Source: Nocardiopsis potens DSM 45234
GTDB taxonomy: Bacteria > Actinomycetota > Actinomycetes > Streptosporangiales > Streptosporangiaceae
DNA length: 64,000 nucleotides
NCBI RefSeq assembly: GCF_000341105.1
Contig: NZ_ANBB01000042.1
Location: 1-64,000 of the forward strand
Direction: 5' to 3'
The notes under the pieces were generated by a model. The model was not told the origin of the DNA. It did no database searches and saw only the letters and a program-made list of their open reading frames with translations. Below, piece after piece: positions 49,505 through 53,722 of this stretch (position 1 is its first letter; each line of letters opens with the position of its first letter). A program made the position numbers and the translations under genes.

Positions 49505-50698
49505 CGCGGCCGCCCCTCCGGGCATCCGGGGCCGGGCGGAGGGCCGCCGGCTGGTCCCCGGCCCGCCCGGCCCTGGAGGCCCCGGCCCGCATCCTGCTCT
49601 CCTCCGGCTCCGAGGGCGAGCCGGCCATGGTCGCCTACACGCACAACGCCATGGCGGGGGGCCGGGGCGACTACCCGGCCGCACTGCACACCGGCCCGGG
49701 CCCGATGCGCAACCTGGTGCTGGTCTCCCTGGCCTCCTCCTTCGGCTCCTGCGGGGCCCCGGTGACGCCGGCCCGGTACGGCGGCACCCTGGTGCTGCTG
49801 CCCCGGTTCGACCCGGCCGCCGCGCTGCGCGCGGTGCAGCGGCACCGCCCCACCCACCTGATCGGGGTGCCGACCATGCTGCGCCGCATCGCCGAGCTGC
49901 CGGAGGAGGCCGACGCCTCCGCGCTGCGCACGGTGGTGGCCGGCGGCGCGCCGCTGCACCGCGAGGTCCGCGACGCCTGCCTGCGGCGGTTCGGCCGCCC
50001 GGTGGTCGACGTCTACGGCTCCACCGGCGGCGCCAACCGCCACACCGGGCGCGACCCCGGCGCCTGGGAGCCCGGCGTCGCCGGGCACCCCGCCTCCGGC
50101 GTCGCCGAGGTGAGCATCCGCGACCCCGGGGGCCGGCCGGTCCCGCCGGGGGAGACCGGGGAGATCTGGGCGCTGGGGCCGATGACGCCGATGTGCCACG
50201 TGGACGCGCCCGGGCTGGACGCCGACCGCAGGGCCCCGGGCGGCTGGGTGCGCCCCGGCGACCTGGGGCTGATCGACGCCGAAGGGCGGCTCCGGGCGGT
50301 GGACCGGCTCCGCCGGGCGGTGATCCGCGGCGGGGTCGACATCTCCCCGGCCGAGGTGGAGCGCGAACTGGGCGCGCACCCGGCCCCGGCCGAGGCGCAC
50401 CGCCTGCCGGTGCCCGATCCCGACCCGGGCGAGCGGATGTGCGCCTGCGTGGTCCCCGGGCCCGGCACGCCCCCGCCGGCCCGCGAGGACCTGCTGGCCT
50501 TCCTCCGCGACGAGCGCGGCCTGGACGTCCGCAAACTCCTCCGAGCACGTGGCGGTCCTGCCGGAGCCGCCGCTCGGCCCCACCGGCAAGGTGTGCACGG
50601 CCGCCCTCTCCCGCGCCGCCGCCGAGGCCGCCGCCGCGGACCGCGCCCGCGGCACCGAACGCAGAGCAGACGGAAGCAAGGAGAAGGAGTACAGATGA
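49505..50698 (+). pseudogene. Remnant of an AMP-binding acyl-CoA ligase, truncated and frameshifted
   Basis: The sequence reads as the middle and C-terminal part of an AMP-forming ligase: LLSSGSEGEPAMVAYTHNAM (the P-loop-like A3 region, without the usual Lys), HLIGVPTMLRRIAEL, VVDVYGSTGG, GEIWALGP and WVRPGDLGLIDAEGRL. The N-terminal ~180 residues are missing. After LDVRKL (about 50537) one extra base shifts the frame; SEHVAVLPEPPLGPTGKV continues in the next frame to TGA 50698. Both the truncation and the shift mean it cannot make a working enzyme. Its end overlaps a methyltransferase remnant. Confidence 0.8.
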
Positions 50699-50937
50699 CC
50701 GACACCGCGACCGAGGCGCCCGGGAACGCGGCGCCCTCCCGCCACCTCTTCGACGACCACAGCGAGCACGCCTTCGACCGGCACCGCCTCCTGGCCGCCG
50801 CCTACGACCCGGTGACCACCGAGCGGCTGGCGGAGACCGGGGCCGGACCCGGGGGGCACTGCCTGGAGGTGGGCGCCAAGGGCGGCGGCGTCGCGCGGTG
50901 GCCGGCCGACCGGGTCGCCCCGGGCGGCCGACCAGGC
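50695..50937 (+). pseudogene. N-terminal fragment of a SAM-dependent methyltransferase
   Basis: ATG 50695 overlaps the ligase stop (ATGA) and has GGAGAAGGAG upstream, so an original operon is visible. The product begins MTDTATEAPGNAAPSRHLFDD, continues AAAYDPVTTERL and reaches HCLEVGAKGGGVARWPADRVAPGG, the start of a Rossmann methyltransferase (motif I E-x-G-x-G-x-G, with Lys inserted for Gly). Homology stops there; the frame continues as low-complexity sequence to 51066. The gene is therefore truncated. Confidence 0.7.
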
Positions 50938-51140
50938 GGGTGCCCCCCCGCGCTGCGCGGGCCGGGCGCCTCCCGGGGCCCGGCGCCGGGGCCGGTCCGG
51001 CTCCGGGCCGGGGCGGGTGCGGCAGGAGTGAACGATTCGGGAGAATGGGGCGTCCGAACCGCGTGAACGTCCTCCTCCCCGCACGGGGCACGGCCGCGGC
51101 GCCGTGCCGGGGGAGGGAGCCCCGACCCCCGAGGACTCCG

Positions 51141-53321
51141 ATGGCCCACCCCTTCCGAGCGCCCGCCGGCCTCGCCCCGCTCGAACCCGCCGACCCCCGG
51201 TCGGTCCCGCCGTTCACCGTGCACGGCAGGCTCGGCGCGGGCGGCATGGGGGTGGTCCTCGCCGCGACCGACCCGGCCGGGGCATGGGTGGCGATCAAGG
51301 TCGTGCGGCCCGAGTACGCGGGCGACGCGGAGTTCCGGGCCCGCTTCGCCGGCGAGGTCGAGCTGATGCGCCGGGTCCGGGCGCGCTGCATCGCCCCGGT
51401 GCTGGCGCACGACACCCGCGCGGGGCAGCCCTGGTACGCCACCCCCTACCTGCCCGGGCCGACCCTGGGGGCGCGGGTCCGCCAGGGCGGGGCGATCCCG
51501 ATGCCGCAGGCGAGGGTGGTCGCGGCGGGCATGGCCGAGGCGATCGCCGCGATCCACGCGGCCGGCGTCCTGCACCGCGACCTCAAGCCGTCCAACGTCA
51601 TCCTCGCCCCGGACGGCCCCAAGGTCCTGGACTTCGGCATCGCGCGGGCGGTCGACGAGACCGGCCTGACCCGGACCGGCGGCCTGGTGGGCTCGCCCGG
51701 CTGGCTGAGCCCCGAGCGCTACCGGGGCGTCAGCGGGCCCGAGGCCGACGTGTTCGCGTGGGGCGCGATGGTCGCCTTCGCCGCCACGGGGCGCTCGCCG
51801 TTCGGCGGCGGCGGGGCCGAGACGCTGATGTACCGCATCCTCAACGAGGAGCCGGACCTGGGCGGGCTGCCCGAGGAGCTGCGGGAGCCGGTCACCGCGG
51901 CCCTGGACAAGGACCCGGACCGCCGCCCGCGGGCGGCGGAGCTGCTGCACCGGATCGCCGGCCCCGCCCCCGGCGCCGAGGCGGGGGCCGATGCCGGGGC
52001 CGACGACACGACGGTCGTCGACGGGCTCATCCGCGCCCACTGGGACGGGGGAGGGGACGGGCCGGGAGCGGCCGCCCCGCCCGAGACCCGAGGGACGCGG
52101 CCCGCCCCGCCCGAACCCCACGCGGCGAGGCCCGCTCCGCCCGCGGTCCCGGGAACGCCGCCGCCCGCCCCGGCCCCGCCCGGGACGCCGGGGGACGGGC
52201 CCCCGGCCCGCCGCTGGAAGCTCCCCCTGGCCCTGACCGCCGGGGCGCTCTCGGTCGCGCTCATCGGAGTATCCGGGCTGATCGCCGCCGCGCGGTTCGG
52301 CGGCGGGGACGACGGGGAGCCCGGCGGGCCCGGCCCGGCCGCCGAACCGCCGCCCCTCGCCGGCGAGGGGACCCTGTCCGGGGCCTTCCAGGGCGCCGGC
52401 TCCACCTTCCTCGCCGCCGCGTTCGAGGGGTGGGCCGCGGACTACGCCGAGCGGCAGCCGGGCGTCGAGGCCTCCTACGACGCCGTCGGGTCGGGCGCGG
52501 GGGCGCAGATGTTCGTCAGCGGCGAGGCCGACTTCGGGTCGGCCGAGGCCGGCCTCACCGCGGAGGAGGTCGAGGCGGCCGAGGCCGCCCGGGGCTGCCC
52601 CGTCGTCCAGTTCCCCGTGGTGACCGGGGCCGTGGCCGTGGTCAGCGCGAACGAGGAGCTGGAGGGCACGGCGTTCACGGCGGACGGGCTCGCGAGCCTC
52701 TACCGCGGGGAGGACCTGGACTACCCGGGGCTGCCCGGCACCGTCCCCGCGGAGGGGGCGGACGGGGAGGGGCCGAGCCTGGAGATCGTCCCGGTCCGCC
52801 ACGACGACACGGCCTCCACCGCCCGGGTGTTCGCCGACTACCTGGCGTCGCGGGGCACCGGGTGGGACCCCGAGGACTGGGGCGACGCGGCCGTGGCCGC
52901 CCCCGGCGACGAGGGCGTCTACCAGGTCCTCCAGGAGGAGCAGGGCGGCATCGGGTTCGTCAACGCCTCCTTCGCCGACGAAATGGAGCTGACGGCGCTG
53001 CCGGTCGTCAACGACTCCGGCTCCCCGGTCGTCCCGGACCCCGGCAGCACGGAGGCGGCCACCGAGCAGCTGGAACTGGACGGCGGCAGGGCCGCCCTCC
53101 CCTCGGCGGAGGGGGAGGCGTACCCCATCATGCGGATCGCGCACGTGTTCGCCTTCGAGTGCGGCTACGACGGGGGCGCCGGAGCGGCGCTGCGCGACTT
53201 CTGGCTCTACGCCCTGGGCGAGGAGGGCGCCGGGACCGCCCAGGACACGGGGTACACCCCGCTGGGCCCGGTGATCGCCGAGGAGACCACCGGCACCGCG
53301 GCCCGCATCGGCACCGCCTGA
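51141..53321 (+). CDS. Ser/Thr protein kinase fused to a PstS-like phosphate-binding domain
   Basis: This 726-aa receptor kinase has a Hanks-type kinase domain (about 24-275): glycine loop GRLGAGGMGVV, Lys53 in VAIKVV, HRDLKPSN (Asp147), DFG (Asp164) and activation-loop SPGWLSPE. A Pro-rich juxtamembrane region (about 305-357) and one membrane segment (about 361-384) follow. The extracellular part (about 410-726) is a PstS/PBP-like domain: SGAFQGAGSTF, YDAVGSGAGAQMFVSGEADFGSAE, and IGFVNASF. A phosphate or similar ligand outside could control the kinase inside. ATG 51141 is preceded by GAGG. I know PASTA and other sensor domains on such kinases; a PstS-like one is unusual. Confidence 0.9.
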   Translation: MAHPFRAPAGLAPLEPADPRSVPPFTVHGRLGAGGMGVVLAATDPAGAWVAIKVVRPEYAGDAEFRARFAGEVELMRRVRARCIAPVLAHDTRAGQPWYATPYLPGPTLGARVRQGGAIPMPQARVVAAGMAEAIAAIHAAGVLHRDLKPSNVILAPDGPKVLDFGIARAVDETGLTRTGGLVGSPGWLSPERYRGVSGPEADVFAWGAMVAFAATGRSPFGGGGAETLMYRILNEEPDLGGLPEELREPVTAALDKDPDRRPRAAELLHRIAGPAPGAEAGADAGADDTTVVDGLIRAHWDGGGDGPGAAAPPETRGTRPAPPEPHAARPAPPAVPGTPPPAPAPPGTPGDGPPARRWKLPLALTAGALSVALIGVSGLIAAARFGGGDDGEPGGPGPAAEPPPLAGEGTLSGAFQGAGSTFLAAAFEGWAADYAERQPGVEASYDAVGSGAGAQMFVSGEADFGSAEAGLTAEEVEAAEAARGCPVVQFPVVTGAVAVVSANEELEGTAFTADGLASLYRGEDLDYPGLPGTVPAEGADGEGPSLEIVPVRHDDTASTARVFADYLASRGTGWDPEDWGDAAVAAPGDEGVYQVLQEEQGGIGFVNASFADEMELTALPVVNDSGSPVVPDPGSTEAATEQLELDGGRAALPSAEGEAYPIMRIAHVFAFECGYDGGAGAALRDFWLYALGEEGAGTAQDTGYTPLGPVIAEETTGTAARIGTA

Positions 53322-53380: not shown

Positions 53381-53722
53381 GCGCGCACCCTGAACGGCGC
53401 CGACCCCGGTGCGCCGAGCGTGCGGGAGATCGCGGAGGCCGTCGCCGCGCACTTCGGCCACGCCTGGCGGGTGCGCCCCGCGACGGAGGCCTCCGGCCTG
53501 GGGCGGACGCCGTGGGACACCGAGTCCCCGATCGTCCTGGGCACCTCGGCGGCCGAGCGGATCGGCTGCACGCCGGCCGGCACCTACGCCGAGACGGTCC
53601 GCGAGGAACCGGACTGGCCGGCCCGGGCGGCGGAGGCCGGCCCGGAGCCGGTCGCCGACGCCGCCTTCACCGCCCGCTACCTGGACTACCGCGCCGAGGA
53701 CGCGGCACTCGCCGCCGCCTGA
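53381..53722 (+). pseudogene. C-terminal fragment of an NAD-dependent epimerase-like gene
   Basis: From about 53381 the frame reads ARTLNGADPGAPSVREIAEAV, then HFGHAWR, TPWDTESPIVLG, GCTPAGTYAETVREEPDW, typical of the C-terminal end of actinobacterial short-chain/NAD-dependent epimerases. The Rossmann N-terminal two thirds are absent; the sequence begins only 60 bp after the kinase stop, with no credible start or ribosome binding site. A GTG at 53420 could start a 100-aa protein, but it would not fold as the enzyme. Confidence 0.65.

Follow-up and report, generated by a model that had tools for sequence, protein, structure and literature searches.

The gene at 51141-53321 of the window, by which we mean the whole 64,000-nucleotide stretch of DNA that was analysed, encodes a protein with the architecture of a receptor kinase and an outer domain derived from PstS. 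Our favoured reading, held with somewhat better than even confidence, is that the protein is a single-pass membrane receptor kinase from a clade of recombining kinases, with an ectodomain that is of PstS lineage and would serve a ligand other than phosphate. The preliminary description of this DNA had proposed a phosphate-sensing receptor kinase independent of PhoR; of that proposal the receptor-kinase architecture with its PstS-derived outer domain stood, and the phosphate ligand did not fare as well, four of seven phosphate contacts being changed. The modular kinase clade is now the more interesting point than the claim of a phosphate receptor, which is weakened. To our knowledge, the ligands of most bacterial receptor Ser/Thr kinases are not known; since the ectodomains of this clade come from transporter-binding families whose usual ligands are known, the ligands of these receptors can be guessed and the guesses tested.

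Gene and domain architecture

The features of the gene are collected in Table 1. The reading frame stays open upstream of the ATG at 51141 and would run to 1042 residues if counted from a GTG; that ATG was taken as the start because it is the one chosen by a G+C-by-codon-position caller, written for this analysis, and because relatives conserve the sequence downstream of it. The Pkinase profile (PF00069) scores 110.8 bits, above its gathering score of 31.7, and the kinase motifs can be read directly as GAGGMGVV (residues 32-39), VAIK (50-53), HRDLKPSN (145-152) and DFG (164-166), with SPE at residues 190-192 where APE is the usual motif, so that the Hanks-type kinase of the preliminary description is borne out. 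The same is true of the one membrane segment between the domains, found by hydropathy scan (a second stretch flagged by the scan, at residue 126, falls within the kinase domain), and of the full PstS-like ectodomain with its GAGSTF (418-423) and GSGAG (450-454) motifs, to which PBP_like_2 (PF12849) matches with an E value of 5.6e-27 (95.6 bits against a cut-off of 27). One chain thus holds a kinase, one membrane segment and a full binding-protein domain. From this topology the kinase would lie inside the cell and the PstS-fold domain outside; the kinase is presumably catalytically active. Narrower families were not reached by either part: the best NCBIfam match, the AfsK equivalog NF053615, covers residues 14-333 only and scores 239.5 bits against a cut-off of 1300, the likeness to this Streptomyces kinase being confined to the kinase part, as it is for the PASTA kinase family NF033483 (153.5 bits against 450); the scores for the PstS equivalogs TIGR00975 (123.8 against 205) and PRK10918 (70.7 against 339) also lie below their cut-offs.

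Table 1. Window positions of the kinase gene, its domains and the pocket residues of its outer domain
Feature	Position	Strand	Evidence
Whole gene, 726 aa plus stop	51141..53321	+	ORF reading; start kept in relatives
Hanks-type protein kinase domain, residues 26-270, catalytic motifs present	51216..51950	+	Pfam PF00069, E 9.7e-32
Juxtamembrane linker rich in Pro/Ala/Gly	51951..52214	+	sequence
Single membrane-spanning segment, about residues 361-382	52221..52286	+	hydropathy scan, sequence
PstS-fold (solute-binding protein) ectodomain, residues 408-726	52362..53318	+	PF12849 at 408-682, AF2 model, Foldseek
GAGSTF, T422 = E. coli T10, kept	52392..52409	+	alignment
GSGAG, S451 = E. coli S38, kept	52488..52502	+	alignment
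E469 = E. coli D56	52545..52547	+	alignment
VRHDDTASTA altered loop: R553 (=R134), H554 (=R135), A558 (=S139), S559 (=G140), T560 (=T141)	52794..52823	+	alignment
D590 = E. coli N177 (PhoX Asn201)	52908..52910	+	alignment, PhoX contact list
R665 and H668	53133..53144	+	alignment

By sequence, the ectodomain finds PstS with a best phmmer E value of 6.4e-19 (to 2z22). An AlphaFold2 model, built on an alignment of 34 sequences (the window's, one relative from Nocardiopsis lucentensis and 32 viral PstS), has a pLDDT of 90.6 and a pTM of 0.87; Foldseek ranks PstS first for this model (8ods, E 6.2e-25), and VIA-align superposes it on the cyanophage PstS 7xg8 over 291 residues with a Z score of 32.0 and an rmsd of 2.9. 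As modelled, the ectodomain has the complete PstS fold.

Distribution and ancestry of the outer domain

With up to six candidates per genome scored, so that further copies may exist, the fusion was found in 12 of 341 genomes of the window's family: 10 of 40 in genus g38, which is taken to be Nocardiopsis, 1 of 2 in g30, and 1 of 6 in g1, the last being the window's own genome. Both domains are complete in 11 copies, and the remaining one, from N. lucentensis, is cut by a contig edge. In a class-wide search of 394 genomes at E<=1e-45, family members included, the five matches of 459-487 bits are all in the window's family. In these searches five or six candidates at most were scored in any one genome, and the counts hold among the matches listed; lower in the search lists, no kinase match was found in larger frames at five of the seven class-wide places, at one more class-wide place and three places of the family search, or in frames of 774 and 810 aa. 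No relative of the ectodomain was found in viral contigs when they were searched by ectodomain patterns.

The closest stand-alone relatives are 33 frames of 370-478 aa in g38, which score 209-230 bits to the fused ectodomain, against at most 146 bits for other PstS. Two of them, L059 and L061, were read with wide flanks, and their neighbours include genes for two permeases, an ATPase and a response regulator (assigned by Pfam in L059 and by similarity in L061), a set that places these stand-alone PstS in a Pst operon. A tree of 49 ectodomain sequences joins the 12 fused domains in one clade (100/100), which groups with 19 stand-alone PstS (96/99), and sets 13 canonical PstS apart in a clade of their own (100/100); thus, the ectodomain belongs to the lineage of this second operon, a lineage of the Nocardiopsis group, and not to the canonical one. 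Elsewhere in the window's genome lie a pst operon of the canonical kind (L045) and a second stand-alone PstS (L044). In the second operon itself (L059:3218-8570 and L061:3522-8742), which has a PstS with Glu56, the regulator gene sits between those for PstS and the ATPase and, in L059, is assigned by Pfam to the OmpR type. One PstS of this second-operon type, also stand-alone, was seen in another family of the class (L184, genome G558), perhaps acquired by transfer.

The phosphate pocket

In PhoX of Xanthomonas citri, the contact list given in PMC5439949 has phosphate held by Ser34, Ser62, Asp80, Arg159, Gly164, Thr165 and Asn201, which an offset of 24, derived here, converts to positions 10, 38, 56, 135, 140, 141 and 177 in E. 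coli numbering. The preliminary description cited two motifs of the ectodomain and named loss of the phosphate-contacting residues as what would speak against it; outside those motifs such loss is found. The window's ectodomain retains three of the seven; the other four are lost through D56E, R135H, G140S and N177D, and S139A is present beside them. These positions were counted in 12 fused ectodomains, 25 related stand-alone PstS (of the 33 listed) and 13 canonical PstS. The retained contacts are general: all three sets have Thr or Ser at position 10, every sequence has Thr at 141, and 38 is Ser in 11/12 fusions, 25/25 stand-alone and 13/13 canonical proteins. At position 135 all 12 fusions have His, against Arg in all 25 stand-alone and all 13 canonical PstS, and at 139 all 12 have Ala, against Ser throughout both other sets. 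Position 140, Gly in every stand-alone and canonical sequence, is occupied by Ser in 10 of the fusions, by Ala in one and by Thr in one. The other two changes are less clear-cut. Glu56 occurs in 11/12 fusions and also in 25/25 stand-alone PstS, with Asp in 13/13 canonical proteins, and position 177 is Asp in 12/12 fusions, Asn in 25/25 stand-alone and Ser in 12/13 canonical PstS. Since working PstS vary at 56 and 177, these two are weaker evidence, and positions 135, 139 and 140 are the strongest points for a changed pocket. The conservation of phosphate contacts that marks PstS is therefore not found here, with the reservation that canonical PstS also vary at 177.

Moreover, the fusions share residues of their own. 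Arg665 (12/12) and His668 (11/12) occur in none of the 38 other sequences compared; Arg553, at a site that is Arg in E. coli as well, is present in 12/12. The pattern R-H-x-x-x-A-x-T-A is identical in all 12 while the remainder diverges. Because the same change runs throughout the fusion family, the pocket looks remodelled, not decayed. Decay by chance is disfavoured, R135H, S139A and N177D being identical in 12/12 fusions, and the rate comparison does not settle it. In comparison with PstS and PhoX, then, the window protein shares the fold, sequence homology and three of seven phosphate contacts, but it is fused to a kinase, lies without recognised transporter genes beside it and has four of the seven contacts changed. 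The PstS branch is accordingly a test case for the evolutionary re-tooling of a phosphate pocket.

Rates were obtained by a simple pairwise count with a rough dN/dS, a crude measure for DNA of 75% G+C. In the kinase, 10 genome pairs differ by 0.015-0.14 at non-synonymous sites, with a rough dN/dS of 0.08-0.30; for the ectodomain the corresponding figures are 0.15-0.32 and 0.48-1.06, the value of 1.06 being that of the window's own pair. Within the one gene, the ectodomain is thus clearly under less constraint than the kinase, and weak constraint would give such values. Set against stand-alone PstS from the same genomes in 7 pairs, the ectodomain differs 2.2-6.5 times more at non-synonymous sites; since its synonymous difference is 1.6-8.4 times higher too, and since the stand-alone dN/dS is itself 0.27-0.91 (exceeding that of the ectodomain in 1 of these 7), the contrast speaks only weakly against a phosphate sensor.

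What the outer domain may sense

Because the contacts are altered alike across the family, inorganic phosphate is not the best-supported ligand and is most likely not bound in the manner of PstS. We suppose instead that the ectodomain binds a small ligand, that this ligand is something other than phosphate, and that its binding controls the kinase. An extracellular small molecule would be bound between the two lobes of the ectodomain; lobe closure, or ligand-dependent dimerisation, would then alter the activity of the cytoplasmic Hanks kinase, with the single helix relaying the change of orientation or the dimerisation.

Several other explanations have to be weighed against this one. The most trivial is that the fusion is an accident of annotation or chance, in which neighbouring genes were joined by read-through or an assembly error. 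This has a negligible probability, nothing was found in its favour, and it is ruled out by the complete architecture in 11 genomes including the window's, the kinase domains of the ten relatives being 72-86% identical to it, to which the twelfth copy, interrupted by its contig edge, can be added. A more serious proposal is that the protein is a true phosphate receptor kinase, one that still binds Pi, with neighbouring or new Arg and His residues standing in for Arg135, and controls its kinase apart from PhoR. Phosphate could be bound through another geometry since Arg553 adjoins the lost Arg135 and since Arg665 and His668 are new; the presence of both arginines in all 12 fusions, the PstS fold and homology, the three kept contacts, and a Glu56 shared with stand-alone PstS, the two from pst operon loci among them, all speak for it. 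Yet R135H, S139A and N177D are found in 12/12 fusions, Gly140 is lost from every one, and the loss of Arg135 with the gain of Asp177 would leave a site less suited to an anion. The absence of recognised pst or pho neighbours counts against phosphate as well, as does the finding that each of the 12 fusion genomes holds one or more additional PBP_like_2 matches scoring above the family cut-off, and, weakly, the ratio of 2.2-6.5 in non-synonymous difference over the seven genome pairs. We consider a phosphate receptor doubtful, with a minor but real chance of being correct.

It is also conceivable, and we think quite unlikely, that no small ligand is involved, the outer domain being a degenerating PstS that serves dimerisation or contact with an envelope component such as the Pst transporter, a second binding protein or the cell wall. 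Such a domain could account for the high non-synonymous difference in the ectodomain and linker relative to the kinase of the same gene, for the loss of the main phosphate contacts, and for the patchy occurrence in 12 of 341 genomes (with up to six candidates scored in each). It sits less well with a frame that is intact in all 11 full-length copies, with an R-H-x-x-x-A-x-T-A pattern constant in 12/12 against a diverging remainder, with a rough dN/dS below 1 in 9 of 10 pairs, and with the occurrence of other types of binding protein on sister kinases. The reading that we prefer thus remains a PstS-lineage receptor for a non-phosphate ligand.

A kinase clade with diverse outer domains

The window's genome has 36 matches to the kinase domain at E<=1e-20, itself included. 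In one of the two nearest paralogues (L191), the kinase is 68% identical and the ectodomain is of the SBP_bac_3 family, its best NCBIfam match being the ectoine-binding protein EhuB at 159.7 bits, below the cut-off of 190.9; in the other (L194), the kinase is 62% identical and the ectodomain is SBP_bac_1. Sampling 55 chosen genomes by similarity to the window's kinase at E<=1e-97 yielded 24 kinases, which form one supported clade (97/92) in a kinase tree of 51 rows. Solute-binding-protein ectodomains are present on 22 of these 24 and come from six Pfam families: PstS (11), SBP_bac_5 (4), SBP_bac_1 (2), SBP_bac_3 (2), Peripla_BP_6 (2) and OpuAC (1), with 2 ectodomains lacking a Pfam match. The best kinase tree does not make the 11 PstS-type kinases monophyletic, 10 of them grouping with L024 just outside; monophyly is not rejected (p-AU 0.404), and it is recovered by the ectodomain tree. 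The kinase tree includes 25 other kinases, from genomes G000, G126 and G127, and no solute-binding-protein match was obtained for any of them, 4 of the 25 frames being cut at the end of the locus. Since the 24 were found by similarity and the 25 represent three genomes, less closely related kinases may have binding-protein ectodomains as well. The clade of binding-protein kinases has at its base L230 and L232, whose ectodomains have no Pfam family at the threshold used. Four kinases of the same broad family, with no recognised Pfam ectodomain, stand in tandem at G127:C1:1251117-1257471 (L192, L195, L197 and L200).

The clearest case of exchange comes from two kinases of one genome (L235 and L236 in G072), which are 99.2% identical over 897 bp through the kinase and then continue into unrelated ectodomains, one OpuAC (glycine betaine/choline type) and the other SBP_bac_3 (EhuB type). 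This shows ectodomain exchange, or gene conversion of the kinase, on one scaffold. The best reading of the clade as a whole is that different transporter binding proteins were joined by recombination to a single kinase scaffold. Natural pairs in which one kinase bears differing outer domains, L235/L236 foremost among them, amount to ready chimeras with which to ask how a bacterial kinase with a single membrane pass reads its ectodomain. We put forward more tentatively, at rather less than even confidence, a joint proposal: that the Nocardiopsis group holds a kit in which one kinase scaffold is recombined with binding proteins of at least six families (phosphate, ectoine, glycine-betaine/choline, oligopeptide, sugar and branched-chain-amino-acid types), and that the PstS-type branch of this kit was re-tooled from Pi to another, perhaps zwitterionic or organophosphorus, ligand through Arg135 to His, Asn177 to Asp and the new Arg665 and His668.

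Gene neighbourhood

Neither in the window nor in 10 related loci was a pst or pho gene recognised next to the kinase, the neighbours being judged by eye from their first residues and by similarity clustering with a few Pfam scans; the company of pstC, pstA and pstB that would mark a PstS was likewise not recognised there. An AMP-binding gene on the same strand ends 74 bp upstream of the kinase gene in the window, so that co-transcription is possible. Homologues of this gene (49627-51066 in the window) also adjoin the kinases at L049:8546-10150 and L051:8630-10234, on the other side and strand. Gene order is shared by L049-L051, and by L052 with L054-L057; L053 and L058 differ. No operon partner common to the related loci was seen. 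A few features of these loci might be taken differently. In L055 and L056, a response regulator and an apparent sensor kinase lie some 4-5 kb from the fused kinase, the regulator falling into one similarity cluster with its counterpart from the second Pst operon. At L057, a set of sugar-type transporter genes lies a few kb upstream of the kinase, and in L058 an ABC ATPase directly after the kinase clusters with PstB and by eye resembles an export ATPase. In the window, a 100-aa frame at 53420-53722 has a good codon signal and no Pfam match, and is possibly a gene remnant; Rfam at gathering scores gave no match between 48000 and 56000.

Relation to known systems

The combination of kinase and binding protein is already in database annotation. 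Two Streptomyces proteins (WP_331752712.1 and WP_331752709.1) are annotated as "bifunctional serine/threonine-protein kinase/ABC transporter substrate-binding protein" and, like the window protein, have an N-terminal Hanks kinase and a C-terminal solute-binding protein in one chain, but their ectodomain is Peripla_BP_6 and not PstS-like, and their kinases lie outside the 24-member clade. Since these two kinases fall elsewhere in the tree, kinase/binding-protein fusions probably arose more than once. In the parts of the open-access PMC literature covered here, no paper on Ser/Thr kinases fused to PstS-type or other binding proteins was found. For Streptomyces, the covered parts of a review of phosphate sensing (PMC7866108) discuss PhoR-PhoP and PstSCAB, and no Ser/Thr receptor kinase appears in them.

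Two systems described in other actinobacteria come close. In Corynebacterium and Mycobacterium, the GlnH-GlnX-PknG system likewise couples a solute-binding protein to the control of a Ser/Thr kinase (PMC9769921), but it does so through three separate proteins and a cytoplasmic kinase, whereas the window protein has sensor and kinase in one chain. In M. tuberculosis, the receptor Ser/Thr kinase PknD is associated with a PstS gene, its predicted operon including pstS2 (PMC3322341), although its own sensor is a beta-propeller (PMC2877116) and PstS2 is a separate protein. A tandem arrangement was seen on the 626-kb linear plasmid of Streptomyces anthocyanicus (L187), where two kinase/Peripla_BP_6 fusions are adjacent.
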